A DNA stretch of 64,000 nucleotides from Magnetococcales bacterium WMHbinv6 (GCA_002753135.1 PDZV01000001.1:62001-126000); one strand, 5' to 3'. Shown: positions 8,779-44,251, numbered from the stretch's first letter. Numbers and translations: made by a program. Notes: a model not told the origin generated them from the sequence alone.

Positions 8779-9318
8779 ATGCAGCATGCGGGTCGCCTCA
8801 GTTGGAAAAGGCAGAACGGTATTTCAACCAAGAGATATCCCTGTATCGGAAGATCGTTGAACACACAGGTAGGTAAGGCGGAAAGAGGATGGTCCTGCAA
8901 GAGCAACTGTCCAGCGCAGACAGAGACACTGTACCAAGAGGCTCTCGCCCCGTTTCAGCTTTACGGCTATCGGTATGACGCCAACAAGGTATCGCAAGCT
9001 CTGGAAAAACTCGTCTGACTTCTATTCCCCCACAGGGGTGCAGCATATTCTGCACTGCACAATTGATTGTTTATCGAGTTTTTTATTCCATTTCAAACAG
9101 TTAAACAATCAATTACCATTCGATAAGCTGTTTTGCTGCACATTAGCCATTACATGCTACAGGGAACAAACGATCTGATCTATTTGATTATCAATAGAAT
9201 TCTAACAAAAAATATCATGGCATACTTCCTGATGTATGGAATAGCGTCGGACAGTTCTTCATAAAGCAAACTGGGACCGACACTTGATACACTTTATCCC
9301 TACAGAGGAGTCTATAGC
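8779..9318. other. 540-bp gap with inverted repeats, no gene
   Basis: No convincing coding frame is present. It holds a perfect inverted repeat GTGCAG-N6-CTGCAC at 9038-9055 and, directly after it, a second one with AATTGATTGTTTA (9061-9073) facing TAAACAATCAATT (9102-9114). The 10-mer TGCACTGCAC (9051-9060) overlaps the first and recurs three times near 43770-43970. The pattern looks regulatory, probably for the membrane protein gene at 9319. Confidence 0.4.
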
Positions 9319-9639
9319 ATGAAAAAAACCATTCGTCCGGCGTATCGTTTATTGGCAGCCTTGGTGGCCGTGTTGGGCATGGTGGTCATGGCCCGTTTGC
9401 AGATGAAGGGTGCTTTGCCGTTGTTGGCAGGTATTCTGTTCAGTGCGGTTGCTGCTGGTATGTTGTTGCGTTTTTCCGCCTCCTCGCTGTTTAACCGGGT
9501 GCGCCGCCCCCTGTTTACCCTGACTGCGAAACCGGTGGCAGTGGTTGCTGAGGCTGCAGAAGCGAGGGTGGAACACATGCACTTTGCAGTACCCGCAACT
9601 TCCGTGGGCGAAATGAAAGCGGTGGCTACCTCGGCCTGA
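9319..9639 (+). CDS. small two-helix membrane protein, unknown function
   Basis: A 106-residue protein with a short basic N-terminus (MKKTIRPAYR) and two hydrophobic segments at about 11-27 and 33-50, followed by a polar, alanine-rich C-terminal half. GAGGAG stands at a good distance before the ATG. No family is recognised. It is a single gene behind the inverted-repeat region. Confidence 0.6.
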   Translation: MKKTIRPAYRLLAALVAVLGMVVMARLQMKGALPLLAGILFSAVAAGMLLRFSASSLFNRVRRPLFTLTAKPVAVVAEAAEARVEHMHFAVPATSVGEMKAVATSA

Positions 9640-9961
9640 CCTCTTCTCTTGCCGCTTCGTCACTATCGCCAATCGATGGGGTCAGTGATGGAGCGGCAAA
9701 GCGCTGCGTCCGCTTCACCTGCTCTTGGCTATCGGCTAATTTCTCAACGATCAGGCAACAGGCGGCAGCGGCATCCAAGCAATGCCTACACCACAAACCA
9801 CTTATGGACCTAGCAACAATAACTTGGGCATCTTGCCTGTCTTTTGCTCCTCCTGCGTCGTTGCAAAAACGCTTACACACTAAAAGCATGCGCAGATTTT
9901 TGCGCCTGGCAGGCGAAGCAAAATCCGGCGCAATCTGCACAAGTTGTTTTCGCCAGGCTCC
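9640..9961. other. 322-bp gap between convergent units, hairpins only
   Basis: Contains an imperfect hairpin just after the membrane protein gene (TTGCCGCT at 9649-9656 with AGCGGCAA at 9692-9699, inner TCACT/AGTGA), and a second possible hairpin after the transporter operon (GCCTGGC near 9905 with GCCAGGC near 9955). Neither has a proper T run. No coding frame is convincing. Confidence 0.35.
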
Positions 9962-10690
9962 TTACCGGGAAAGAAGTCGGGAAAGAAACTGCACGGCCCG
10001 CTCCGACTTTGGGGCAGCAAAAAAATCAGCACTGGGGCTGTCTTCGAGAATTTGCCCCTGATCCATAAAAATGACCCGATCCGCCACCCGGCGGGCAAAG
10101 CCCATCTCGTGGGTGACACACATCATCGTCATTCCCTCCTTGGCCAGTTCCACCATCACATCCAACACTTCATTGATCATCTCAGGATCCAGGGCGGAGG
10201 TGGGTTCATCAAACAACATGCAGATCGGATCCATGCACAAAGCCCGGGAGATGGCTACCCGCTGTTGCTGACCACCCGAAATTTGCCCGGGATATTTCAG
10301 CGCCTGATCGCGCAAACCTACCCGGTCGAGCAGTCGCATCCCCTTCTCTTCCGCCTCGGCTCGGCTACGCTTCAAAACCTTCACCTGTGCCAGACAAAGA
10401 TTATCCAAAACGGTCATTTGCGGAAACAGCTCGAAGTGCTGAAAAACCATCCCGACCCGGGCACGCAACAGGTTTAAATTGGTCTTCGGATCCCGAACCG
10501 AGACGCCATCCACCACAATTTCCCCCTTTTGAAAGGGTTCCAAGGCGTTGACACATTTGATCAGGGTGGATTTGCCAGAACCGGATGGGCCACATACCAC
10601 CACAACTTCCCCTTTATCCACTTCAGCACTGCACTGAAAAAGAACACGGAAATCACCATAATATTTGGAAATGTTGCGGATGGAAATCAT
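9962..10690 (-). CDS. gltL: amino-acid ABC transporter ATPase (GltL/GlnQ type)
   Basis: A 242-residue polar-amino-acid ABC ATPase with Walker A GPSGSGKS at 34-41, signature SGGQQQR at 138-144, Walker B MLFDE at 158-162 and the H-loop in VTHEMGF. It energises uptake, probably of glutamate or aspartate given the GltJ-like permease in the same operon. The ATG at 10690 overlaps the stop of the upstream permease (ATGA), which fixes the start. Confidence 0.93.
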
Positions 10691-11361
10691 CGTATCCTCT
10701 TTTTCTGCAGTCGGGCAACCCACTGTGAAGCCATAAAGCTGATCAGAAAGTAGACGGTGCCCGCAATCAGCATCATTTCAACCAGATGCCCATCACGATC
10801 ACCTATCTTGTAGGCAGAACCAAAAAAGTCAGACAAGCCAATCACATAGACCAAAGAGGTGTCCTGAAACAAAATTACCGCCTGGGTCAACAACAGGGGC
10901 AACATATTGCGGAAGGCCTGCGGTAAAATAATGATACGCATCGTCTCCCGGCGACTGAAACCAAGCGCCAAACCGGCATCAAACTGACCACGAGGTATGC
11001 TCAAGATGCCGGCACGCATAATTTCTGAATAATAGGCGGCCTCAAAGAGAGAGAAAGCTACCAGGGCAGAGGTAAAACGAATATCCTCTACGGTATTGCC
11101 GAACAAAGCGTGCATCAATTGTGGCACAACCAGAAAAAACCAAAGGATAACCATCACTAAAGGAACGGAGCGGAACAGATTGACATAGGCGGCAGCCAAC
11201 CAGGATACCCAACGAATGCGCGATAGACGCAGAGCAGCCAACAGTGTACCCCATAAAATGCCAACAACGATGGCAATCAAGGCAATACGCGCCGTCATCC
11301 ACAAACCACTCAACAAAACCGGCGCAACTGATGTCCAATGCTGGCTCTCCAACAGGATCAT
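10687..11361 (-). CDS. gltK: amino-acid ABC transporter permease (GltK type)
   Basis: A 224-residue His/Glu/Gln/Arg-type permease with about five membrane helices and the conserved cytoplasmic EAA-like loop ([23 protein letters not shown]) that docks the ATPase. It overlaps the genes on both sides by ATGA (10687-10690 and 11358-11361), so the three are translationally coupled. It should pair with the GltJ-like permease half of the upstream fusion protein. Confidence 0.9.
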
Positions 11362-13067
11362 GACTTGCCTCCGCTGGTAAAACGAGGAATGCGTATAGCA
11401 GTTTCCAAGTGGCGCATCGCAAGCATGACCAGCACATTGATCAGTAAATAGAGGGTGGTAACGGCAATAAAGGCTTCGTAGGGTTGTGCGGTATAATCGA
11501 CCAACTGTTGAGCCTGCCGGGAAAGTTCAATAAAACCAATGGTAGTAGCCACTGCGGAATTTTTGAAAATGTTCAAAAACTCACTGGTCAAAGGAGGCAG
11601 GGTAATTCGCAGGGCAACAGGCAATAAAACATAGCGATACACCTGTGGCAAGGTCATGCCAAGAGCCAACCCGGCATTTTTACGCCCTGGAGGCAAAGAT
11701 TCAATCGCCGTGCGTACTTGTTCGGTGATGCGGGCGGCGGTAAACAAACTCAAACAGAGCCAAGCAGCAAAAAATTGCTGCGAGAGTGGGTGCCATTGTT
11801 TGAAGGCCTGACCCCATGCTTCCGGCAGCAATTCCGGCAATACAAAGTACCAGCAAAACAGCTGAACCAACAACGGAATGTTTCTAAATATCTCTACATA
11901 GGCTTTGGCGACCATCACCAATCCAGGTTTGCTTTCCGCTGTGCGCATTACACCCAACAACAAACCTAGCAGCAGGGCCAAACACCAGGCACTCAAAGAA
12001 AGCAACACCGTCCACTGCAACCCTTCCAGCAACCATTGCAAATAGGTATCTCCGCTGGGGGTACGTGTCAATAAAATGCCCCAGTTCCACTGATACCCTT
12101 TCGTGGTTGAATCAGCGGTTGCAGCGACCTTCTCCGACTCATCTGGCGGTTCAAACGAGGTATCGTTTGGCTCTTCATACAACAATCGCATCGGCTCAGA
12201 AAGGGGGAAATCCAGATTGAGGTTTTTGGGCGGAATCGGGCTGGTAAACCATTTGTAGTAGATGCGCTCCGCTTCCCCGGAGAGCATCATCCGGGTAACC
12301 ACCGCATTGACCAGTCGACGAAAATCGGGATCATCCTTGCGCAAAGTACAGCCATAAGCCTCTAACGTGACCGGCGGCCCGGCAATGGCCCAATCCTGAG
12401 GATTTTTGGCTTTGGCTCGTTCTCCATACAGCAAAGCATCATCCATCATGAAAGCGACCGCACGACCCGTTTCCAGAATCAGAAATGATTCGCCATGATC
12501 TTTGGCACTGATGATGTTCATGCCCATTTTTTTGTCGTCGTTCATGCGACGCAGCAACCGCTCGGAGGTGGTTCCGGCGGTGGTTACAACCGTTTTACCA
12601 ACCAGGTCAGGAAAATCACGCAGGCCAGAGTTGCTGCGGGTCATGAAACGGGTGCTAACCACAAACAGACTGTTGGAAAAAGCCACCTGCTTGCGACGTT
12701 CCGCATTGTTGGTAGTAGAACCGCACTCCAGATCAACTGTACCATTTTGAACCAAGGTAATGCGATTTGCGGAAGTTACCGGCATCAGGCGCACAGTCAA
12801 GTCAGGAAGATTGAGGCGATTTTTGATCGCTTCAACAATTTTTAGGGCAAAAACATGGGAATAACCGATTACCTGTTGGTTTTCACCATAATAGGAAAAG
12901 GGCATCGACGATTCTCGATGGCCCAAGGTAATCACTTTACTTTCCTTGATTTTGAGCAACGTACCGCCATCTGCCTGCAACGTACTGACTGGGAGCAGGC
13001 ATGGGTAGATAATGCCAAGGATCAGGAGCCACAATGGTTTCAAATTCATTAAGACCGTCAGCAGCAT
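11358..13067 (-). CDS. fused amino-acid-binding protein and permease (GltI-GltJ fusion)
   Basis: A 569-residue protein that normally would be two. A signal-like hydrophobic N-terminus is followed by a type-3 solute-binding domain (about 36-270: ITLGHRESSMPFSYY, VDLECGSTTNNAERR, VVTTAGTTSERLL, ending ERIYYKWFTSPIPP). An acidic linker leads to a permease (about 325-560) starting YQWNWGILL, close to the N-terminus of GltJ, with FRNIPLLVQLFCWYFVLPELLP and EQVRTAIESLPPGRKNAGLALG. The reading frame is continuous across the join. Tethering should give each transporter its own receptor. The substrate is probably glutamate/aspartate. The start could also be 13049; neither has a clear ribosome site. 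Confidence 0.88.
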   Translation of the reverse strand: MLLTVLMNLKPLWLLILGIIYPCLLPVSTLQADGGTLLKIKESKVITLGHRESSMPFSYYGENQQVIGYSHVFALKIVEAIKNRLNLPDLTVRLMPVTSANRITLVQNGTVDLECGSTTNNAERRKQVAFSNSLFVVSTRFMTRSNSGLRDFPDLVGKTVVTTAGTTSERLLRRMNDDKKMGMNIISAKDHGESFLILETGRAVAFMMDDALLYGERAKAKNPQDWAIAGPPVTLEAYGCTLRKDDPDFRRLVNAVVTRMMLSGEAERIYYKWFTSPIPPKNLNLDFPLSEPMRLLYEEPNDTSFEPPDESEKVAATADSTTKGYQWNWGILLTRTPSGDTYLQWLLEGLQWTVLLSLSAWCLALLLGLLLGVMRTAESKPGLVMVAKAYVEIFRNIPLLVQLFCWYFVLPELLPEAWGQAFKQWHPLSQQFFAAWLCLSLFTAARITEQVRTAIESLPPGRKNAGLALGMTLPQVYRYVLLPVALRITLPPLTSEFLNIFKNSAVATTIGFIELSRQAQQLVDYTAQPYEAFIAVTTLYLLINVLVMLAMRHLETAIRIPRFTSGGKS

Positions 13068-13290
13068 TTTTTATTGAAAGCCAGCAGGATGGCCTATTTA
13101 CCACCCTCACTGACCGTATGGATAACACACTTCCCTGGAGTATTGCACTGTTTTACGCGCATCGTTCGCCGAAAAATCGCACCTGTCGTCCTGCAGGTAA
13201 TCCCATAGCTTTTTCCTTGCGTGCCATGGCCTTTTGGCTTTATCTACCGATCATGCTTCTTCGTTCCGCTCAAAACCGGCGGGGGTTGCC

Positions 13291-30353: not shown

Positions 30354-31733
30354 ATGAACATGCGGGATATTCTCTTTTCCAGGCTGGCCAATATCTATTA
30401 TGGCAGCTTGCGCTATTTAATGGTGGAGATGCGGGATATTGTTCTGCCGGAAATTCCCGCCGTTGTACACTCTTTTTTTAAAGAGATCCACGAAATCGAT
30501 GAATTAGCCTCCTTGATCGATAATTCCATCGTGACCCGCAACCTGTTGGAAGCCATGGACCAGTGGTGGGGCGACCTTTTTCGTCCCAGCAATCCGGCAG
30601 AGGTAGAGCAGTTTATTCTTCGTCAACTGGAAATCGGTAGCAAACATGCAGATTTGAATATCAACCTGCACTATATCCACCATGCCATCCGCATTTTTAA
30701 ACGGGAGATTCACAGTCGCCTTGATTTTCAGGTTGAATTACCGGAAAAACAGGTCGCCATGGCCCAGTTACTCGATGAATTGCTGGATATTATCAGTTCA
30801 TTGATGTCAGACAGTTATTTCAAAAATCTGGTCAAATATGAAACCGATACCCTGTCGTTGCGCATGAATGCCCTTAGTCAAAATGTGGCCATTGAATGCG
30901 AAAGGGTCCGTTCCCAGTTGTTGGAGTGGTCAAAAGGGATACTTTTCAACCTGTTCCAAAACCGCCGGATCGATCCAGACACGTTAATCTATGCCGAATA
31001 TTCCATGTTTGGCATGTGGGTGTTTCACAAAGCCGATTTGTTGTTGCCAGAACCGTCCATGGTGGACAAACTCAAACAACATCTGCGCCATATTGATATG
31101 GAACTCAGCCAGGTTGCCACCTTGCGCAGTGAGGGGCTAAAACCAAAATTTCTTAATAAAGTCCGAGCATTTGACAGCCATGTCAATCAAACAGCATGGT
31201 ACCTCAGCAGCCTGGTGGAACAAATCGTTAAGCTGGACGCCGGTCGGGATTCCCTGACCAGCCTGTACAATCGACGCTACCTGGATACCGTGTTACGCCG
31301 TGAAACTGAGATCAGCATGAAACAGGGCTATTCCTACAGCGTTCTGCTGTTGGATATTGATTTTTTCAAAAAAATCAATGACACCTATGGCCATGATGCC
31401 GGTGATGCCATTTTGCGCCAATTCAGTGAATTGTTGGTCGGCAGTCTGCGTATCAGCGACTTTTTGTTTCGACTGGGAGGAGAAGAGTTTCTCGCGGTTC
31501 TCGGCAATACCAACCGCAAACATGCTGTCCCCATCGCTGAAAAAATCCGTCGTGAATGTGAACAAAAACCATTTGTCGTACATCACGATCAGATCATCCG
31601 TGTCACCTGCAGCATCGGTATCGCCATCTATAAAGGCCATCCCGATTATAACCTGTTGATCAAACAGGCCGATCAGGCCCTTTATGCCGCCAAGCAAAGC
31701 GGTCGCAACCGACATTGCGTTTTTGGGGAATAG
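30354..31733 (+). CDS. globin-coupled diguanylate cyclase (DosC-like)
   Basis: A 459-residue protein, almost exactly the length of E. coli DosC (460), with the same layout: globin sensor (1-150), middle helical domain (about 170-300, with FGMWVFHKAD like the DosC FGLWFNHKG segment) and GGDEF domain (about 300-459). The candidate haem-ligating proximal histidine H98 (GSKHADLN) falls at the number of the DosC ligand. The catalytic motif is GGEEF, and the inhibitory RxxD site (RISD) stands five residues before it. It should make cyclic di-GMP in response to O2 or another haem ligand. It is divergent from cheA. Confidence 0.9.
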   Translation: MNMRDILFSRLANIYYGSLRYLMVEMRDIVLPEIPAVVHSFFKEIHEIDELASLIDNSIVTRNLLEAMDQWWGDLFRPSNPAEVEQFILRQLEIGSKHADLNINLHYIHHAIRIFKREIHSRLDFQVELPEKQVAMAQLLDELLDIISSLMSDSYFKNLVKYETDTLSLRMNALSQNVAIECERVRSQLLEWSKGILFNLFQNRRIDPDTLIYAEYSMFGMWVFHKADLLLPEPSMVDKLKQHLRHIDMELSQVATLRSEGLKPKFLNKVRAFDSHVNQTAWYLSSLVEQIVKLDAGRDSLTSLYNRRYLDTVLRRETEISMKQGYSYSVLLLDIDFFKKINDTYGHDAGDAILRQFSELLVGSLRISDFLFRLGGEEFLAVLGNTNRKHAVPIAEKIRRECEQKPFVVHHDQIIRVTCSIGIAIYKGHPDYNLLIKQADQALYAAKQSGRNRHCVFGE

Positions 31734-31965: not shown

Positions 31966-33621
31966 ATGGCACCGAATTGGCGGCGGGATGTCTTTTCGGA
32001 AGAGGCAAACGGTTATTCCGAAACGAGGCTAGGCCTGGATGTTATCGCAAGTCAATCGGCAAGCTGGAAAATTTGTCTATCCGACTGGAATTACTGGATG
32101 AAACTACCGCAATCCCTGGGTGTACGGCTTTTGTTGGGCATCTGGTTCGCCGGTTTGTTGTTGCTGTCTGCCTTTTATTTCCTGGCCGTGGAAGCGCGAC
32201 AAATCCATCGCGAGGCCATGGAAGACCATTTTTTTATGAACTTTCTCAACACGGTATTGGAAACACGGCGTTACGAAAAAAGCTATTTCCAATTCCATAA
32301 CAAACACGACTGGGAAAACGCGCTGAACTATCTGGACCAGGTGGACAGGCAGTTGCGGGTAGAACGTAAATCCTTCCTGGAACGAATCAATGGCTCAACC
32401 ATTCATGCCAATCTGACCAAACTGACCAACGAATATCGAGAAAAACTGTTGCAGACCCCACGTCTTCTGGAAAACGATCCAAAACTCATTCATGATCTTG
32501 AACTGGTTCTGCATCAAAACGGGCGGCAATTTCTCACGATTGCAGAACAGTTGGCCTCCGACACCAAAAATGATATATCGGCAGCATTGCAACACAGCTA
32601 TTCGGTGATTTTTTACATCTGTTGTTTATGGATAGCGATATTGATTGCCGCCAGCCATTTTGTCTGGAAACGTGTTCATTCCCCTATCAATCGTTTACGC
32701 AATCAATTGTTGCACACCATCGAAGGCGACTTGCAACCGATTTCTTCTTTCGACGATCAAGAGTGGCAGCGTTTGCTTGAACCGATCAACTACTTGATCT
32801 CCTGTGCGGAACGGGGGAAAAGCAGGCACACTGCCGGTCAGCAACAGGCTATGGTCACGACCCTGCTTTTGCCGTTCAGCAAAACCTTGGCGCAACCGAT
32901 GGCCAATCTATCCACCACTTGTCAAATTCTTTTGGAAGAAGAAAACACGGAAACTTCGGCCAGCCGGAGTGTCATGTTGCTGCAGTTGCGCCACTTGGCC
33001 GAACAAAGCAATCGCATTGTAGCCACTATCCAGCAGCATGCCCTGTTGAGTTTGCAACCGTTCACGACCATCCAGTTGCAACAGTGGCTGCACAAGGTGT
33101 TGGCTCAGCAACACCTGCCGTTACCTGCTCTGCAAGCGTGGCAGCACCAGTTGGATCAGGATATAAACCTGCATGGCAATCCGGCGTTGTTGGAGCTGGT
33201 ACTGGTTGCACTTCTGCAACATGCCGTCCATCGCTCACCACCTGCAGCGTTGCAGAGCCTCTCAGTTTGCCGCCAGCACCGCGCAACGCTTTTCCCGGAA
33301 GCCACGCCAAGCCAAGATGAAATTTTTTATTGGTTGCCAGAAGATGCGCAGGAAGTGATCCTTTTCACTCTGCCGTTGGCCAGTGAACTCGCGGATCAAC
33401 CAAGCTGGTCCACAACAGATTTGCCACTGCTTTTTTTGCCACAAGCAGAAGAAAACCCGGCACTATGCCTGTTGCCGGAAATTGTCCGGCTGCATAATGG
33501 CTTTTTGCGTGTGGAGCCATGGCAACCATCCTGGTTGCGATTACAGATTGGTTTTCCGCTGCCCGGCAAACTGCTCAACCAGCGCCCCAGTCACCCCTAT
33601 CAGGGAACCGTTTCCGCATGA
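31966..33621 (+). CDS. membrane histidine-kinase-like protein lacking the H-box histidine
   Basis: Up to 551 residues: TM1 near 52-73, a helical periplasmic region of about 130 residues, TM2 near 211-232, a HAMP-like stretch, and a kinase-like half. Where the DHp helix should read AHEINNPL the sequence is PFSKTLAQPMANL, with no histidine. The ATPase half keeps only traces and lacks clear N and G boxes. It overlaps the sigma-54 activator gene by ATGA (33618-33621), in the position of a cognate kinase. It may therefore sense and signal by binding rather than phosphorylation. An alternative start at 32098 would begin just before TM1; neither start has a clear ribosome site. Confidence 0.7.
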   Translation: MAPNWRRDVFSEEANGYSETRLGLDVIASQSASWKICLSDWNYWMKLPQSLGVRLLLGIWFAGLLLLSAFYFLAVEARQIHREAMEDHFFMNFLNTVLETRRYEKSYFQFHNKHDWENALNYLDQVDRQLRVERKSFLERINGSTIHANLTKLTNEYREKLLQTPRLLENDPKLIHDLELVLHQNGRQFLTIAEQLASDTKNDISAALQHSYSVIFYICCLWIAILIAASHFVWKRVHSPINRLRNQLLHTIEGDLQPISSFDDQEWQRLLEPINYLISCAERGKSRHTAGQQQAMVTTLLLPFSKTLAQPMANLSTTCQILLEEENTETSASRSVMLLQLRHLAEQSNRIVATIQQHALLSLQPFTTIQLQQWLHKVLAQQHLPLPALQAWQHQLDQDINLHGNPALLELVLVALLQHAVHRSPPAALQSLSVCRQHRATLFPEATPSQDEIFYWLPEDAQEVILFTLPLASELADQPSWSTTDLPLLFLPQAEENPALCLLPEIVRLHNGFLRVEPWQPSWLRLQIGFPLPGKLLNQRPSHPYQGTVSA

Positions 33622-35048
33622 ACGATCCTCTCCGGATTTTGGTTGTCAATCGTGACAAGGTTGCCGTGCAAAACCTGGAACATATTTTGGCACGGGATGA
33701 ATGCGCGTTTATGAAAGCCTTCGGCAGCAGTGAAGCCATCTTGCTGTTGAATACACCACACTATGCCACAACTCCTTTTGATGTCATCATTGTCGATCTG
33801 GAACGAGACGCACTGAATGAAAACCATTTTTTCCAACTTTGCCAACGGTTGCAACCCACGGCAGAAGTGATCTTTTTTGCCGACCCCTTGACCGTACCCA
33901 ATGTGGTGCAAACCATTCGGCAAGGAGCGTTTCACTATCTGGTCAAACCTCTGCGACCGGCAGAACTGCGGCACAGTGTCTCCCTGGCCGGAGAACAAAG
34001 CCGACACAAACAACGACAACGAGGTTTGCGGCAGGCAGTCTCTCATCAGCATGGCTCTATGCCGCTGCTGACCCGTGATCCACAGATGTTGCGCCTTCTG
34101 GAACAGGCCAAACGGGCGGCGGCGATGGATTTGCCAGTATTGATTACCGGTTCTACCGGCACGGGCAAGGAAATTTTAGCCCGCCTGTTGCACGACGAAA
34201 GCCCTCGTGCCCAGCGCCCTTTTGTCGCGGTCAACTGTGGTGCATTTCATGAAGAGTTACTCGCCAACGAACTGTTCGGACATGGACGAGAAGCCTATAC
34301 AGGTGCAGTCCGAGACCGCAAAGGATTGATTGAAGCGGCTCATGGCGGCACCCTGTTTCTGGACGAAATTACAGAAATGCCCCTGAATATGCAGGTAAAG
34401 CTGCTGCGGGTGATTCAGGAAAAGGAGCTGCGTCGTCTGGGTGTCACCACGACCATTTCAGTGGATGTCCGCTTTATTGCCGCCACCAACCGGCCGATTC
34501 GTCAAGAGGTGGAAGAAGGTCGGTTTCGGCAGGATCTCTATTACCGTTTGAATGTCATTGACCTGCATTTACCTCCTCTGGCGCAACGACAGGGAGACAT
34601 TCCTTTGTTGGTCAATCATTTTCTCGACAAATACGGCAACAAGCACCAAGGCCAACCACTCGGGATCAGTCAAGCCGCCTTGCAACGTTTGCAACAACAC
34701 TCTTTTCCCGGCAATGTGCGGGAATTGGAAAATATTATGCAACGCGCCGCCGCCTTCGCCTGCCATGCAGAAGTTACTGAAGAGCTGTTGCCCGATTATC
34801 TTGATAAACAAAAATCATACTATTTTCAATACAGCAACACCAGAATGCTTCCTTTAGCTGAAATGGAACAGCAATATATTTTATGGGTTTGCGAACAAAT
34901 GAATGGCAATCAAACACTGGCCGCCAAAGTGTTGGGGTTGGATCGCATCTCCTTGTGGCGCCGTTTGAAAAAAATTCAATCTTCGCCTTTGTTCGACGGG
35001 GGGGATATTTTGGAGGCTCCCCCCTCAATGGAACCGCTCATCCAGTGA
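33618..35048 (+). CDS. sigma-54-dependent response regulator (NtrC family)
   Basis: A 476-residue activator: receiver domain (1-120; conserved Asp in IIVDLERD, although the acidic pocket reads NRDK instead of DD), AAA+ domain (Walker A GSTGTGKE, Walker B GGTLFLDE, RQDLYYRLNVIDL) and a Fis-type HTH (NGNQTLAAKVLGLDRISLWRRLKK). The sigma-54 contact loop reads EAYTGA instead of GAFTGA. The start is fixed by overlap with the kinase-like gene. Two -24/-12 promoters and two matching dyads lie within 1 kb downstream and are its likely targets. Confidence 0.94.
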   Translation: MNDPLRILVVNRDKVAVQNLEHILARDECAFMKAFGSSEAILLLNTPHYATTPFDVIIVDLERDALNENHFFQLCQRLQPTAEVIFFADPLTVPNVVQTIRQGAFHYLVKPLRPAELRHSVSLAGEQSRHKQRQRGLRQAVSHQHGSMPLLTRDPQMLRLLEQAKRAAAMDLPVLITGSTGTGKEILARLLHDESPRAQRPFVAVNCGAFHEELLANELFGHGREAYTGAVRDRKGLIEAAHGGTLFLDEITEMPLNMQVKLLRVIQEKELRRLGVTTTISVDVRFIAATNRPIRQEVEEGRFRQDLYYRLNVIDLHLPPLAQRQGDIPLLVNHFLDKYGNKHQGQPLGISQAALQRLQQHSFPGNVRELENIMQRAAAFACHAEVTEELLPDYLDKQKSYYFQYSNTRMLPLAEMEQQYILWVCEQMNGNQTLAAKVLGLDRISLWRRLKKIQSSPLFDGGDILEAPPSMEPLIQ

Positions 35049-35185: not shown

Positions 35186-35201
35186 TGGCTTACATATTGC
35201 T
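35186..35201 (+). promoter_or_regulatory. sigma-54 promoter for the small protein gene at 35334
   Basis: TGGCTTACATATTGCT matches the sigma-54 consensus TGGCACN5TTGCW: GG and GC are separated by exactly 10 bp and TTGC is complete. It lies between the sigma-54 activator gene and the next gene. The predicted RNA start is near 35213. Confidence 0.7.
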
Positions 35202-35333
35202 GAACGGCTTGATCATGCGCTCGTGTATAAGGCGAAGCATCTCATTCGTCCTGTACCGATTCTCTGATCACCAAGCAATGTGTGCGACACAACTCATTGC
35301 CGTTGCAGCAAAAGGCAGACAAGGAGAGGGGAT

Positions 35334-35708
35334 TTGAATCCATCATGGGAAGATGAGCCGAATGAACCAATTGCCCTTATCTCGACCCTACCTGATTTCA
35401 ACCTACCACAGCAATGTGAACCGGAGCGAAAATTGTGGATTGCGGTATTAACCACTGCGATCAACGATGCACTGGGAGGGGATAATTATCTGACACGACA
35501 AACGGCGCGCCGTTGGTTCCAGCATGGGGGCAGAAGTTTTGAATTGGTGTGTGATCTGGCCAATTTTAATCCAGACTTTGTGCGGCAGAAAATATTGCAG
35601 GCCATTGCTGTCATCGATACACAACCCTCGCTACCGGTCCATGTACGCCGTTTGCCAGGCCGACCTCCTCGACAAAAAGCGGCCTTAACCGTATTGACCC
35701 GGGCATAA
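35334..35708 (+). CDS. small protein of unknown function, paralogue of the 44018 gene
   Basis: A 124-residue protein. The core (ERKLWIAVLTTAINDA...ARRWFQHGGRSFELVCDLANFNPDFVRQKIL) aligns with the protein at 44018-44251 (KLW.AVL..AI.D..., F..V.D..N..P...RQ.IL). The two are therefore one family, here with extra acidic N-terminal and basic Pro/Arg C-terminal tails. The helical pattern may be DNA-binding, but no named domain is recognised. The TTG at 35334 is chosen because AAGGAG stands seven bases before it; an in-frame ATG at 35280 has no ribosome site. It sits behind a sigma-54 promoter. Confidence 0.65.
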   Translation: MNPSWEDEPNEPIALISTLPDFNLPQQCEPERKLWIAVLTTAINDALGGDNYLTRQTARRWFQHGGRSFELVCDLANFNPDFVRQKILQAIAVIDTQPSLPVHVRRLPGRPPRQKAALTVLTRA

Positions 35709-36037: not shown

Positions 36038-36053
36038 TGGCTTGCATTTTGCT
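36038..36053 (+). promoter_or_regulatory. sigma-54 promoter for the dlt-like cassette
   Basis: TGGCTTGCATTTTGCT has the exact -24 GG/-12 GC spacing and a full TTGC block, and its first six bases equal those of the 35186 promoter. RNA should begin near 36065, giving a leader of about 375 nt before the carrier-protein gene or about 215 nt before the small frame at 36281. Confidence 0.7.
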
Positions 36054-36280
36054 TAGCACTCATATTCATTTCTGATGGTGCTGATGTTACACCCTGTTCA
36101 AGATGGAGAACCCGTCACACTTTTTACCGAAATTTTCCTCCCGGGGCAGAAAAAATTTTTCCTTTTTCCCTGCTTACTTTGCAAAAGTCGCGGATTGGTT
36201 CCTGGTAAAGAGCGTTTGTCTCTGTTAGAATGTTGGGCGGTGGATGGTTATCTATTCATCTCTGTGTCATCCCTGGCGAA

Positions 36281-36421
36281 ATGTTTTACGCCTGGATTGT
36301 TTGGTTTAATTGGTACGTCGCTTTCCCCGTTGCACCACTGGCCCTGGCGGGAAGAGTACAAAACGGCGCGCCCGCAACAAGCCAAAATCTGACCAAATAT
36401 TCTTGGTTGGCTTATTTTTAA
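36281..36421 (+). CDS. possible single-helix membrane microprotein (DltX-like position)
   Basis: A 46-residue frame (MFYAWIVWFNWYVAFPVAP...) with one strongly hydrophobic, aromatic N-terminal segment and a C-terminus ending KYSWLAYF. In Gram-positive dlt operons a one-helix protein, DltX, with an aromatic C-terminal motif precedes dltA and partners the MBOAT. The position here, directly before the carrier-protein and MBOAT-like genes, is similar, but the C-terminal motif does not match FxYxxF exactly. The frame extends upstream to an ATG at 36230. The ribosome site is weak in both cases. Confidence 0.35.
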   Translation: MFYAWIVWFNWYVAFPVAPLALAGRVQNGAPATSQNLTKYSWLAYF

Positions 36422-36430
36422 CCGGTTAAA
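36417..36430. promoter_or_regulatory. 14-bp palindrome abutting the carrier-protein gene
   Basis: TTTAACCGGTTAAA is a perfect palindrome 8 bp before the ATG at 36439, where a ribosome-binding site would be expected and none is seen. It could be an operator or an RNA hairpin that controls translation. Confidence 0.35.
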
Positions 36431-36438
36431 CGATTCCT

Positions 36439-36702
36439 ATGAGCAACCAACGCGAAAGCATTGTCACCTTCCTGCAAACGATTCTGCGCCCATCAGCCTC
36501 CCTGGACAGGCTGCAGGACCATGAAAATCTGGTGCAATTCGGCTATATAGATTCGTTGGCCATGCTGGAACTGGTCGCCTTTCTCGAATCCGAATTCGCC
36601 ATTGATTTTTCCGAAACCGGCGTCAATCCGGCTGATCTGGAATCCATCGACGCCATTTTGGCCCTGATTGCCAGACACCATGCCCCAGCGGTCAAACATT
36701 AA
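36439..36702 (+). CDS. acyl/aminoacyl carrier protein (DltC-like)
   Basis: An 87-residue four-helix carrier protein. The phosphopantetheine serine is in GYIDSLAMLELVAFLE, with the DSL motif. The sequence and the adjacent adenylation and MBOAT-like genes suggest that it carries an activated amino acid as DltC does, rather than a fatty acid. No clear Shine-Dalgarno is seen. Confidence 0.88.
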   Translation: MSNQRESIVTFLQTILRPSASLDRLQDHENLVQFGYIDSLAMLELVAFLESEFAIDFSETGVNPADLESIDAILALIARHHAPAVKH

Positions 36703-36722
36703 TTGCCTGCAAGCAATTGACG

Positions 36723-38198
36723 ATGACCACTCCCCTGCAGCGGCTTTCATTTACATGGCAAAAACTGTCCCAATGGCATGAGGATCATCGCCTGATCAAC
36801 TTTTCTGCCACCCTTTCTGGACAACTGCTGCTCTGGAGCTTCTGCCTGCTTCTGCTTTATCCCGGTGAATATCTGCCACTGCTTCCATTGATGATTCTTG
36901 CCAGCCGTTTGCCAACGCATCGGCTGACCATTCTGGCTGTTGGTGGTGGCGGGCTTTTTTTGTGGAAACGATTTGAGCAAATGCACGTTGTTGATCCGTT
37001 CTGGATCATCAGCAACACGCTGTTTCTGATCGGTCTTTTGTGGCTTTTTTTTCAATTGGCACGCAACTACAGCTCGCTTCCGCAATGGCTGCGCAACTCA
37101 CCGCAAATTGCCCTGCACGGCTTGCTGTGGCTTTGCATTGCCACTGTCCCATTTTTTCCAACTGACTTTCGCAGCAACCCGGAACAAGCTGTATTCCTGA
37201 ACGTCTCTGTTTTTTTGGTTTTGTTCTCTTTTCTGATCTGGCGTATCGGCATACTCTTCTATGCCGGAAAACGTGGACTGCTAAAAAAAAGCAGTTTTCT
37301 CGATCATATGGCTTACTGCATGCCCTATTTGGGTTCAACTCAGGTTCCCTACGGCAAAGGGCTGGACTATCTGCTTGCCAAACAGGCCAAACAGAGCCCA
37401 GATCTGAGCAAATCGCAACTGGCCGGCATCAAATTGCTGCTTCTCGCCCACCTCTGGCAAGCACTGCTTCCAGTTTTGGATCGTTTCACCTTTGCCTCTT
37501 CGGGTCAGACCATTAACCCGCAGCCATTGCTGGTCAAACTCTACCACATTGACAGCCTGACCATTCTGCCAGTGGATCAACTCCCCTCCTGGCCGATTCT
37601 CTGGGGCAGCCTTTTCGTCGACATGATCTATGAAACCATGCAGTTGGCCATCACCGGGCATATGATTGTTGGCTGTCTGCGTCTGTTTGGCTTTAACGTT
37701 TTTCGTAACACCTATCGACCTCTGCTGACGCAAACCCTGGTCGATTTCTGGAACCAATATTATTATTATTTCAAAGAGCTGTTGGTTGATTTTTTCTTTT
37801 TTCCCGCCTACGTCTCCCTGTTCAAAAACAACCTGAAACTGCGCATTTTTACCGCAACCATGGCCTCGGCGTGCCTTGGCAACTTTTATTACCATTTATT
37901 GCAACATTTTGATGTGTATCTGGCGCATGGTGTCAATATCACCTTTGAAAAATTTGTTTCCTATTTTTTTTACTCCATCGTACTTGGTATCGGCATCTAC
38001 CTCAGTATGTTGAAAGCACAGCAACGTCGCACGCTTACCCCCCCCAATCATCCACCACTGGTTGCCAACCTGCTTGTGGTACGTAATATTGCCGAAGTCT
38101 GGCTGTTTTTCTCTCTGCTGCGCATCTGGGATCACCCCAGTTCCACATTTTTGCAGGATACCCGCTTTTTCTTTGCCCTGTTCGGCATCACTTTCTGA
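36723..38198 (+). CDS. MBOAT-like multi-spanning membrane acyltransferase (DltB-like)
   Basis: A 491-residue protein with about 11-12 hydrophobic segments. The part at about 315-405 resembles the MBOAT core of DltB and AlgI: GFNVFRNTYRPLLTQTLVDFWNQYYYYF (compare the xxFWRRWH.SL block) followed by ACLGNFYYHLLQHF, whose histidine aligns with the invariant MBOAT histidine. DltB moves D-alanine from DltC across the membrane. This protein is longer than DltB (about 400 residues) and divergent, so the assignment is by pattern and context. The ATG at 36723 is preferred to a TTG at 36717. Confidence 0.65.
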   Translation: MTTPLQRLSFTWQKLSQWHEDHRLINFSATLSGQLLLWSFCLLLLYPGEYLPLLPLMILASRLPTHRLTILAVGGGGLFLWKRFEQMHVVDPFWIISNTLFLIGLLWLFFQLARNYSSLPQWLRNSPQIALHGLLWLCIATVPFFPTDFRSNPEQAVFLNVSVFLVLFSFLIWRIGILFYAGKRGLLKKSSFLDHMAYCMPYLGSTQVPYGKGLDYLLAKQAKQSPDLSKSQLAGIKLLLLAHLWQALLPVLDRFTFASSGQTINPQPLLVKLYHIDSLTILPVDQLPSWPILWGSLFVDMIYETMQLAITGHMIVGCLRLFGFNVFRNTYRPLLTQTLVDFWNQYYYYFKELLVDFFFFPAYVSLFKNNLKLRIFTATMASACLGNFYYHLLQHFDVYLAHGVNITFEKFVSYFFYSIVLGIGIYLSMLKAQQRRTLTPPNHPPLVANLLVVRNIAEVWLFFSLLRIWDHPSSTFLQDTRFFFALFGITF

Positions 38199-38208
38199 CA
38201 GGTTCACG

Positions 38209-39855
38209 ATGTCGACAACGCTCTCATCTTCGCAGAATCGTCTACCATTCAACCCTGCAGCCATCGTCAATCCGGCCTCCTGGTTTCACCGGAATGCACT
38301 TTGTCAACCGGAAAGGCCGGCCCTGTTTGTCAATGAGACCATCCATCTCTATCGGGATCTTCTCGATTATCTGCTGCCGATTGCCAACAGCATAGTGCAA
38401 CAGGATCCTGATCCGGCACACCCGATCGTTGCTCTGTTCGCCTCCCGTTCGCTGACAGCCTATGCCTCCGTTTTGGCCATCCACTATGCTGGCAAAGGAT
38501 ATGCTGCCTTAAATCCCCTGTTTCCAAGCGAACGTAACCGCCTTATTCTCAACCTGACCGATGCCACCATTTTGGTCGCAGATGCCGCCTGTGCCAATGC
38601 GCTGGCTGAATTGCTCAGCCATTGTGAAAAAAGCCGTTTGATTCTGTTGCCCGACCACCCTGCCCTGCCCGACTGGTGCTACACCCTGCCGCAGCATCGT
38701 TTTTTTTGCCAGAAAGATATTCAGAGTTCCCCTGCACTTCTCCAGGAACCACGTGTGGTCGCTGGGCAATTGGCTTATCTGTTGTTTACTTCTGGTTCGA
38801 CCGGCATTCCCAAGGGTATTGCCGTGCCGGCAAGCAGTCTGAATGTGTTTGTTGCCAATATGATGCATCGTTATCTGCCCACCCCGGAGGACCGTTTTTC
38901 CCAGCACAGTGATTTGACTTTCGACGCTTCGGTCTATGACCAGTTTCTCTGTTGGGCTGCCGGAGCAACCTTGTACTGTCTGCCGCAAAGCGTTCGATTT
39001 GCGCCGGCGCAGTTCATCCGCCAACATGCTCTGACTTTCTGGGAGTCGGTTCCATCCGTGGTCCATTTCATGAAGCGGATGCACCAACTGAAAGCCGGTT
39101 CTTTTCCATCGTTGCGCTGTTCGGTTTTCGGCGGTGAACGGTTGAGTCAGGAGACGGTCCATCTTTGGCAACAGGCGGCCACGAACAGCCTGATTGACAA
39201 CTCTTATGGACCAACGGAAAGCACGATCTGCATTACCGGTTATATCTGGCGTCCCGGCCACTCCGAATCAGAATGTCTGGAAGGGATGGTCCCGATTGGC
39301 CTACCTTATCCCGGTCAGCAAGTGGCCATCCTGCGGGATAATGTTTTGCATCAAGAGGAAGAAGAGGTCGTCGGAGAACTCTGCCTGAGCGGACCGCAAG
39401 TGGATACCTACTATTGGCGCAATGAAAGTGAAACCGAACGGCGCTATCCCATCTTGACCGACGCACACGGCAAACGGCAACGCTGGTACAAAACCGGCGA
39501 CCGTGTCTTTTGGCAAAAAGGGATCGGGTTGTACTACCTGGATCGCATGGACCGACAACTGAAAATTCGCGGATACCGGGTAGAACTGGCTGAAATTGAA
39601 CAGGTACTGCAACAAGTTGCCCAAACCGATCAGGTGGCGGTGATAGGCTGGAACAAACCCGGCACTCAAGTTGCGTCCATTGTTGCTTTTGTTGCCGACA
39701 GCAAAATAAGCGTAGCGGATCTGCTGGCAGGCAGCAGCGAAAGATTACCGCCTTACATGGTACCCAATGCCGTACACCTGATCAGCGAACTGCCACGCAA
39801 CGCCAACGGCAAAACCGATCTGCAACAACTTGCCGCACTCCTTGACGGCGAATGA
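38209..39855 (+). CDS. amino-acid adenylation enzyme (DltA/NRPS A-domain type)
   Basis: A 548-residue stand-alone adenylation enzyme. Core motifs: A3 LLFTSGSTGIPKGI, A4 FDASVYDQF (its Asp binds the substrate amino group), A5 NSYGPTESTI, A7 YKTGD, A8 KIRGYRVELAEIE and A10 NANGKTD with the catalytic lysine. The A4 aspartate says the substrate is an amino acid, and with the carrier protein two genes upstream it plays the DltA role. The exact amino acid cannot be read by eye. The start at 38209 lies 10 bp after the MBOAT-like gene; longer frames overlap it. Confidence 0.88.
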   Translation: MSTTLSSSQNRLPFNPAAIVNPASWFHRNALCQPERPALFVNETIHLYRDLLDYLLPIANSIVQQDPDPAHPIVALFASRSLTAYASVLAIHYAGKGYAALNPLFPSERNRLILNLTDATILVADAACANALAELLSHCEKSRLILLPDHPALPDWCYTLPQHRFFCQKDIQSSPALLQEPRVVAGQLAYLLFTSGSTGIPKGIAVPASSLNVFVANMMHRYLPTPEDRFSQHSDLTFDASVYDQFLCWAAGATLYCLPQSVRFAPAQFIRQHALTFWESVPSVVHFMKRMHQLKAGSFPSLRCSVFGGERLSQETVHLWQQAATNSLIDNSYGPTESTICITGYIWRPGHSESECLEGMVPIGLPYPGQQVAILRDNVLHQEEEEVVGELCLSGPQVDTYYWRNESETERRYPILTDAHGKRQRWYKTGDRVFWQKGIGLYYLDRMDRQLKIRGYRVELAEIEQVLQQVAQTDQVAVIGWNKPGTQVASIVAFVADSKISVADLLAGSSERLPPYMVPNAVHLISELPRNANGKTDLQQLAALLDGE

Positions 39856-43287: not shown

Positions 43288-43342
43288 GCAGGAACAACCC
43301 GGATAACAGGAAAACCAGAAGGAATATACGGCAAGAGATTTT

Positions 43343-43370
43343 CTTGCTGCCGGAAAGATCCGGCAGCAAG
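43343..43370 (-). terminator. hairpin after the cold-shock gene
   Basis: A perfect 12-bp stem (CTTGCTGCCGGA/TCCGGCAGCAAG) with a 4-nt loop lies between the cold-shock gene and the next leftward gene. No T run follows on either strand, so termination may need Rho, or the stem may stabilise the mRNA. Confidence 0.5.
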
Positions 43371-43393
43371 AGCAAGTCTTATTCCGTGCGAAA

Positions 43394-43606
43394 TCAGGCT
43401 TGGGTTACGTTGGCAGCTTGCAAGCCTTTTTGGCCGCGCACAACTTCAAAGGTAACTTTTTGCCCCTCTTCCAAAGACTTAAACCCCTCCGCTTGGATTG
43501 CGGAAAAATGTACGAAAACATCTTCACCGCCGTCATCCGGGGCCAAAAAACCGAAGCCCTTGGAGTTATTGAACCATTTTACAGTACCCGATATTTTTTG
43601 CGACAT
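43394..43606 (-). CDS. cold-shock protein (CspA family)
   Basis: A 70-residue OB-fold RNA chaperone with both RNA-binding motifs ([11 protein letters not shown] and DVFVHFSAI). GGAG precedes the ATG at 43606. An in-frame extension to 43702 is not part of the family. A repeat-bearing upstream region suggests regulation at the 5' end. Confidence 0.97.
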
Positions 43607-44017
43607 GCCTTGCTCCATTAAATTAACAACCGACCTATCTTGTTTTACACCTTGAAGCGCGTTTTTTTGCCGGAAAATCCGACCACGGCCAACAGTTTGC
43701 ACAGATTAGGAAAAAGATCAGGTAAAAGCAAGCAATATCTTTTCCTCCTGTTCATTTTTCATTATTTTGCACTGCACACAAATCTATTGCACTGCACAAT
43801 TTTTTTATTTTCGCTGCCGACTGATCGCTCTCTTGGCCAGGTAAAGCGCAAGCGTGTATGTGGCTCTGGTGTATCTTTTGCGAAGAAAAGCTAAGAAGAG
43901 TGCAAAAGGGACGATAACCCCTGCTTTAACCAGGATGGCCGCCAAAACGATGACAATCGTTGCACTGCACCGATTACTATTGCCAATCCCTTTCCCAACA
44001 CCGTACAGGGGGGTATC
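43607..44017. other. 410-bp divergent intergenic region with TGCACTGCAC repeats
   Basis: No gene. It separates the cold-shock gene (left) from the small gene at 44018 (right) and contains three copies of TGCACTGCAC (43768, 43788, 43961), the first two exactly 20 bp apart. T-rich blocks lie around 43735-43765 and 43798-43808. Confidence 0.5.
43768..43797. repeat. tandem TGCACTGCAC pair, 20-bp period
   Basis: Two exact copies (43768-43777 and 43788-43797) spaced two helical turns apart in the upstream region of the cold-shock gene, with a third at 43961-43970 and a fourth at 9051-9060 beside other inverted repeats. This arrangement is typical of protein-binding sites. Confidence 0.5.
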
Positions 44018-44251
44018 ATGAAAACGCAGCCCGAAGCCAAACTCTGGTTGGCTGTCTTGAGCCGAGCCATTCTGGATCTGGATCATCCTGAAGAGGGGGC
44101 CAGAGCCGGAGCCTGGATTCGTTCCAACAACGAAGGTCCGGGCTCATTTTTGTATGTCGCCGATGTACTCAACCAGGAACCACGGATGTTGCGGCAACGC
44201 ATTCTCGATTGGTACAAACGAAAAAATCAATCCTGGCCTTGCGCGGCCTGA
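44018..44251 (+). CDS. small protein of unknown function, paralogue of the 35334 gene
   Basis: A 77-residue protein (EAKLWLAVLSRAILDLDHPEEG..., FLYVADVLNQEPRMLRQRILDW) sharing KLW.AVL..AI.D and the RQ.IL end block with the protein at 35334, minus its tails. The start is ATG with GGGGGG a few bases upstream. It stands alone, divergent from the cold-shock gene. No named domain is recognised. Confidence 0.65.
   Translation: MKTQPEAKLWLAVLSRAILDLDHPEEGARAGAWIRSNNEGPGSFLYVADVLNQEPRMLRQRILDWYKRKNQSWPCAA

Follow-up and report, generated by a model that had tools for sequence, protein, structure and literature searches.

A proposed carrier-dependent three-gene module with a divergent MBOAT-related membrane protein and a predicted lysine- or ornithine-activating enzyme in a Magnetococcales genome

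The window analysed here, a 64,000-nucleotide stretch of the genome of Magnetococcales bacterium WMHbinv6, carries adjacent genes for a carrier protein, a membrane protein and a stand-alone adenylation enzyme. Together these may form a self-contained, carrier-dependent module for the activation and transfer of a basic aminoacyl group, with a membrane lipid as the most likely acceptor, a reading to which we give roughly an even chance. The host genome (3.84 Mb, 96% complete) has Candidatus Magnetaquicoccus inordinatus UR-1 and two Magnetococcales MAGs as its nearest named relatives, and the host is a magnetotactic-type bacterium of the Magnetococcales close to Candidatus Magnetaquicoccus. The genes of the module and of its neighbourhood that are discussed below are:

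31966..33621, plus strand: probable membrane sensor partner of the regulator, judged by position (syntenic in L021 and L031)
33519..35048, plus strand: sigma-54 response regulator that probably activates the operon (PF00158, PF00072, PF02954)
36038..36053, plus strand: sigma-54 type -24/-12 site TGGCTTGCATTTTGCT, 401 bp before the start of the carrier gene
36439..36702, plus strand: carrier protein, 87 aa, with Ppant Ser39 in IDSL (PF00550 above cut-off)
36723..38198, plus strand: MBOAT-related membrane protein, 491 aa, presumed aminoacyltransferase (hhalign against MBOAT profiles)
38209..39855, plus strand: stand-alone adenylation enzyme of 548 aa with lysine or ornithine as predicted substrate (PF00501/PF13193)

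The carrier, membrane protein and A-domain genes run in the same direction in one tight operon with gaps of 20 bp and 10 bp, and the initial annotation was right to treat them as a unit, all three being present and intact; the start at 36281 that it gave falls in the 5' leader, and the carrier gene truly begins at 36439. Compared with two relatives, all three genes showed dN of 0.14-0.19 against dS of 1.0-2.1, and the DS motif (Ppant) of the carrier was preserved in all homologues aligned. All three are genuine, intact genes that evolve under purifying selection. The viral contigs and plasmids searched contained no homologue of the membrane protein.

Homologues of the membrane protein were gathered from relatives and from a phylum sample, and 20 loci were compared. 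The carrier adjoins the membrane protein in every one of them and the A-domain does so in 17, so that a search for the same three genes together in other genomes, proposed earlier as a check on the unit, bore it out with all three linked at 17 of the 20 loci. Two of the other three loci have an orthologous A-domain on another contig, and the third (L027) starts at a contig edge just before the carrier. The loci span several Pseudomonadota lineages with a gene order that varies by lineage, and outside Magnetococcales the membrane-protein family is rare (a single match among the 385 genomes from one class and another single match among the 78 from a second). A conserved fourth gene, sought across the 20 loci, was not found beyond local synteny, the annotated flanking genes being variable, nor was any exporter or tailoring gene common to the module loci. 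Our literature search found no Dlt-like MBOAT module without an SGNH enzyme. At L025 and L026 the module lies near a sulfatase-family protein and, at L026, also near a membrane spermidine-synthase-like protein.

The membrane protein had been described as MBOAT-like and longer than DltB, and at 491 aa it indeed exceeds the 425-aa DltB chain in the PDB. The MBOAT likeness does not extend to a Pfam match: no family was matched by the 36723 protein, PF03062 included, which was above cut-off in none of the seven module proteins scanned and nowhere in the host genome, and the PDB searched by sequence and by profile gave no match. It is profile comparison that upholds the likeness. The profile of the 36723 family retrieved canonical MBOATs over residues 286-370, and hhalign gave 95.2% (E 2.7e-8) against 28 canonical MBOATs and 96.5% (E 1e-9) against two DltB-like proteins (alignment A3). 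In an alignment of these two with DltB 6BUG, His289 and His336 fall in register. Of the controls, a reversed MBOAT profile and ten membrane proteins unrelated to the family all remained at or below 0.6%, while an eleventh control reached 16.7% at a place that PF03062 also matches and is therefore itself an MBOAT. By remote homology, as judged from these profiles, the 36723 protein is assigned to the MBOAT superfamily. AlphaFold runs with a four-sequence input, on the full-length protein and on residues 150-491, gave a pLDDT of 39.6 both times. In the tree the 36723 family formed its own clade (support 100/100), separate from the Dlt-like MBOATs that occur elsewhere in the tree in other Magnetococcales (L029, L040). 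In L029 the region 9016-13269 makes up a cassette closer to Dlt, in which such a DltB-like MBOAT, with an intact His pair and an FVYHQF tail, has a 363-aa protein and an A-domain of the DltA/AlmE-like type (DLMFLCLIA) as neighbours.

Comparison of 17 module membrane proteins with the 28 canonical MBOATs revealed a preserved core and an altered catalytic region. The window protein keeps the MBOAT core residues G323, N329, P333, F342, W343 and P361, and at position 345 it has Gln where most relatives have Arg. Position 313 is Asp in 25 of the 28 canonical proteins and His in all 17 module proteins, and position 347, which corresponds to DltB His289, is His in 27 of the 28 as against Tyr or Thr throughout the module set (Tyr347 in the window protein). 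Position 351 is Ser in canonical MBOATs and Lys or Arg in module proteins, and both Glu352 and H391 are invariant in the latter (17/17). The equation of H391 with DltB H336 was made by invariance and spacing alone (44 against 47 residues), the profile alignment ending before H391. The best reading of these residues is that the 36723 protein may be a diverged MBOAT whose active site has been rebuilt.

The adenylation enzyme has intact core motifs A3, A5, A7, A8 and A10 and carries the amino-group-binding aspartate, as annotated, at PheA position 235. Its pocket, read in PheA numbering that was checked against 1AMU, is DAYEVGSIC; the pattern DA[YH]E[VI]G[ST]IC holds for every Magnetaquicoccaceae A-domain in the alignment and for two unlinked copies, and each aligned Magnetaquicoccaceae sequence has D235 together with E278, the Lys/Orn-type acidic residue. 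The residues D, E, G, S, I and K also occur in the published ornithine code DVGEIGSIDK (PMC3992020). In module 2 of BacB, of bacitracin synthetase, ornithine is held by a Glu at code position 4, and Ala at code position 2 accompanies lysine in Pls and suits the longer Lys chain (PMC10522769). Ala236 and Gly301 of the window enzyme and its close homologues stand against Leu and Cys in DltA (D-Ala, DLMTMCTVA) and AlmE (Gly, DLHLFCLIA), whose pockets were read from the alignment. The closest solved structures include 4OXI, which also matches the pocket segment better than any other PDB entry; it is AlmE with pocket residues L248/C316 (PMC11253843). The pocket resembles those for ornithine or lysine and not those of DltA or AlmE, and one of these two amino acids is the predicted substrate, bearing in mind that pocket codes can mispredict the substrate, the more so in stand-alone A-domains.

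In other lineages the A-domains that accompany relatives of the transferase have different pockets, and some lack Asp235; the transferase therefore appears to be used with several acids. At L024 (4855-8354) and L083 (266-3137) the family transferase and carrier accompany an acyl-type enzyme without Asp235 (SDQFKGHRS), whose substrate is therefore probably not an amino acid. Other stand-alone A-domains were also observed. A second one in the host genome, on contig C74 (L123, 6619-8214), has the pocket DLHVLCLVA and lies close to genes of the O-antigen ligase, glycosyltransferase and flippase-like kinds. Solidesulfovibrio plasmids (L120, L121) encode one (DLHFLCLIA in L120) close to CDP-glycerol glycerophosphotransferase genes, accompanied by a carrier and by two hypothetical proteins.

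In the systems that have been characterised, a Tyr of DltX or of the MBOAT's C-terminal hexapeptide is acylated by the MBOAT, after which the group is handed on by an SGNH enzyme (PMC12148441). Among the canonical MBOATs listed, 26 of 28 end in an F-x-Y-x-x-F-type tail, and in those of Magnetococcales the C-terminus is mostly F[IL]Y[FY]QF or a near variant; this shuttle-Tyr motif is absent from the C-terminus of all 17 module membrane proteins. No DltX-like ORF ending in F.Y..F was found in the window at 30-46 kb or in ten related loci. The absence of dltD noted for the window was confirmed and extends to the whole 96% complete host genome, in which DltD (PF04914) had 0 matches while control genomes were positive; the absence of an SGNH enzyme is that of the Pfam DltD family, as the ALGX search gave no match to any positive control. 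Since the SGNH partner, DltX and the shuttle Tyr were not found, export of the aminoacyl group to a surface polymer, as originally suggested, is less likely than its transfer to a membrane lipid.

To place the module, we compared it with known systems. The AlmEFG system for lipid A glycylation in Vibrio cholerae likewise has a stand-alone A-domain, a separate carrier and a transferase with no SGNH enzyme, and differs in the AlmE pocket, with its Leu236/Cys301; AlmG is, to our knowledge, not an MBOAT. The AlmE pathway hands the carrier-bound amino acid to lipid A (PMC12930378). DltABCD-X, for teichoic acid D-alanylation, has in common with the module an A-domain, a carrier and an MBOAT-superfamily protein in one operon, but its DltA pocket has Leu236/Cys301, its DltB has His289 where the 36723 protein has Tyr and falls outside the 36723 clade, and it includes DltD and DltX, neither of which was found for the window module. 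Of the Dlt-like unit in the initial annotation, the logic of activation, carrier and membrane transferase is retained, while membership of Dlt is not supported, given the pocket, the Tyr at the His289 position and the separate clade. The module would work like AlmEFG or Dlt and is a member of neither, and the best reading is that it resembles AlmEFG rather than Dlt. PatA/AlgI-type MBOATs with an SGNH partner have the six core residues in common with the 36723 protein, which lacks both their shuttle motif and their first His; PatA works with acetyl-CoA and with a Tyr shuttle at its C-terminus (PMC12148441). The synthetases of epsilon-poly-lysine and delta-poly-ornithine (Pls, PosA) resemble the module in a cationic pocket that feeds a carrier and a membrane part, but they are single fused proteins with the acid at code position 3, against position 4 in the module (PMC10522769). 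An ornithine-lipid OlsHI reading was dropped: the module carrier scored 33.5 bits against the OlsH/OlsI carrier model NF052616 (NCBIfam), far below the cut-off of 130 bits, and the GH3-like enzyme and alpha/beta hydrolase used in that pathway (PMC12493201) are not in the operon.

The genes had also been placed under apparent sigma-54 control, which is supported in the three closest genomes, where the site is conserved, but not in ten other genomes, in which it is absent upstream of the module; sigma-54 control is therefore local, and it was rejected as a family-wide trait. The site is similar in L021 and identical in L022, where the exact 16-mer occurs twice, before the counterparts of the genes behind window sites 36038 and 35186. 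The only window matches to the sigma-54 pattern were 36038 and a two-mismatch copy at 35186, with about one expected by chance and a background of 0.05 sigma-54-type sites (two mismatches at most) per 600 nt. The evidence is thus carried by position and conservation and not by the motif match itself. The response regulator adjoins the module also in L021, L022 and L031 but not in other family members, and a Pfam scan of the 31966..33621 product gave no kinase match. Within the long 5' leader a block at 36147-36230 (CCTGCCAACTTTGCAAAAG...GGTTCCTGGTCAA) is conserved in three genomes, and Rfam gave nothing above threshold on the leader, this block included. Nearby, the genes at 35280-35708 and 44018-44251 encode small proteins that are related to each other (38% identity over 65 aa) and have no Pfam match; the former, with a sigma-54-like site of its own at 35186, is retained in L021, L022 and the genome of L031. 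The window further has a cspA thermoregulator RNA above the Rfam gathering score (43340-43801, minus strand) and a Protoglobin-GGDEF protein (30354-31733), a probable oxygen-sensing diguanylate cyclase.

From the integrity and linkage of the genes, the MBOAT homology, the pocket residues and the relay parts missing where searched, we infer a substrate, a direction of transfer, an acceptor and a purpose, namely surface charge. The 38209 enzyme would adenylate a basic diamino acid, lysine or ornithine, and load it onto Ser39-Ppant of the 36439 carrier. At the inner membrane the 36723 protein would then receive the aminoacyl group from the carrier and transfer it to an acceptor that resides in the membrane and is most likely a lipid. 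The product would be a cationic aminoacyl-lipid, made without tRNA and without a periplasmic SGNH relay.

Other roles for the membrane protein were weighed against this scheme. Dlt-type export, with the group moved to a surface polymer by the MBOAT and the SGNH enzyme and shuttle peptide encoded elsewhere, would account for the enzyme classes, for a step order as in DltA-DltC-DltB and for the remote homology to DltB; we consider it unlikely, as the genome has no DltD, the loci scanned have no F.Y..F-ending ORF near the module, the shuttle Tyr common in canonical MBOATs is missing, DltB His289 is replaced and no fourth gene is common to the loci. Loss of catalysis, with the 36723 protein as an anchor or transporter only and transfer carried out by an unlinked enzyme, could explain why the first MBOAT His is gone and the canonical Asp313 and Ser351 are replaced. 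It seems very improbable to us given that the replacements are themselves invariant (H313, E352 and H391) and that dN/dS of the 36723 gene is about 0.12-0.14; the first position varies in eukaryotic MBOATs too.

The membrane protein might instead serve a small-molecule pathway, in which the carrier-bound amino acid is released as a secreted amide, ester or short isopeptide chain, much as the synthetases of poly-lysine and poly-ornithine do by means of a membrane domain. Against this, the MBOATs that have been characterised are known to act on lipids, proteins or polymers as acylation targets, the loci have no exporter or tailoring gene in common, and the MBOAT-related 36723 protein is, going by description, not obviously the tandem-domain membrane part of homopolymer synthetases. 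Such synthetases do have a membrane domain joined to their A and carrier domains (PMC10522769), which together with the Lys/Orn-type pocket speaks for the pathway, as does the pairing of other family transferases with A-domains of unrelated pocket, some without Asp235, the transferase therefore not being tied to one envelope polymer. On balance this too appears unlikely.

Returning to transfer onto a membrane lipid, we tentatively suggest, as a possibility short of an even chance, that the module represents an MBOAT-derived aminoacyltransferase family not described before, in which the first catalytic His is replaced and a new His/basic/Glu site would make cationic aminoacyl-lipids from carrier-bound Lys/Orn, a counterpart of MprF/AlmG without tRNA or SGNH, with relatives that pair the transferase with A-domains for other acids. 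If so, carrier-fed aminoacylation of envelope components would have evolved with an MBOAT core outside Dlt, and the MBOAT site would tolerate replacement of a residue kept in nearly all canonical bacterial members examined. The compact three-protein system would open carrier-to-membrane transfer to study without an SGNH partner, and it is a candidate pathway by which magnetotactic-type bacteria could make cationic lipids.
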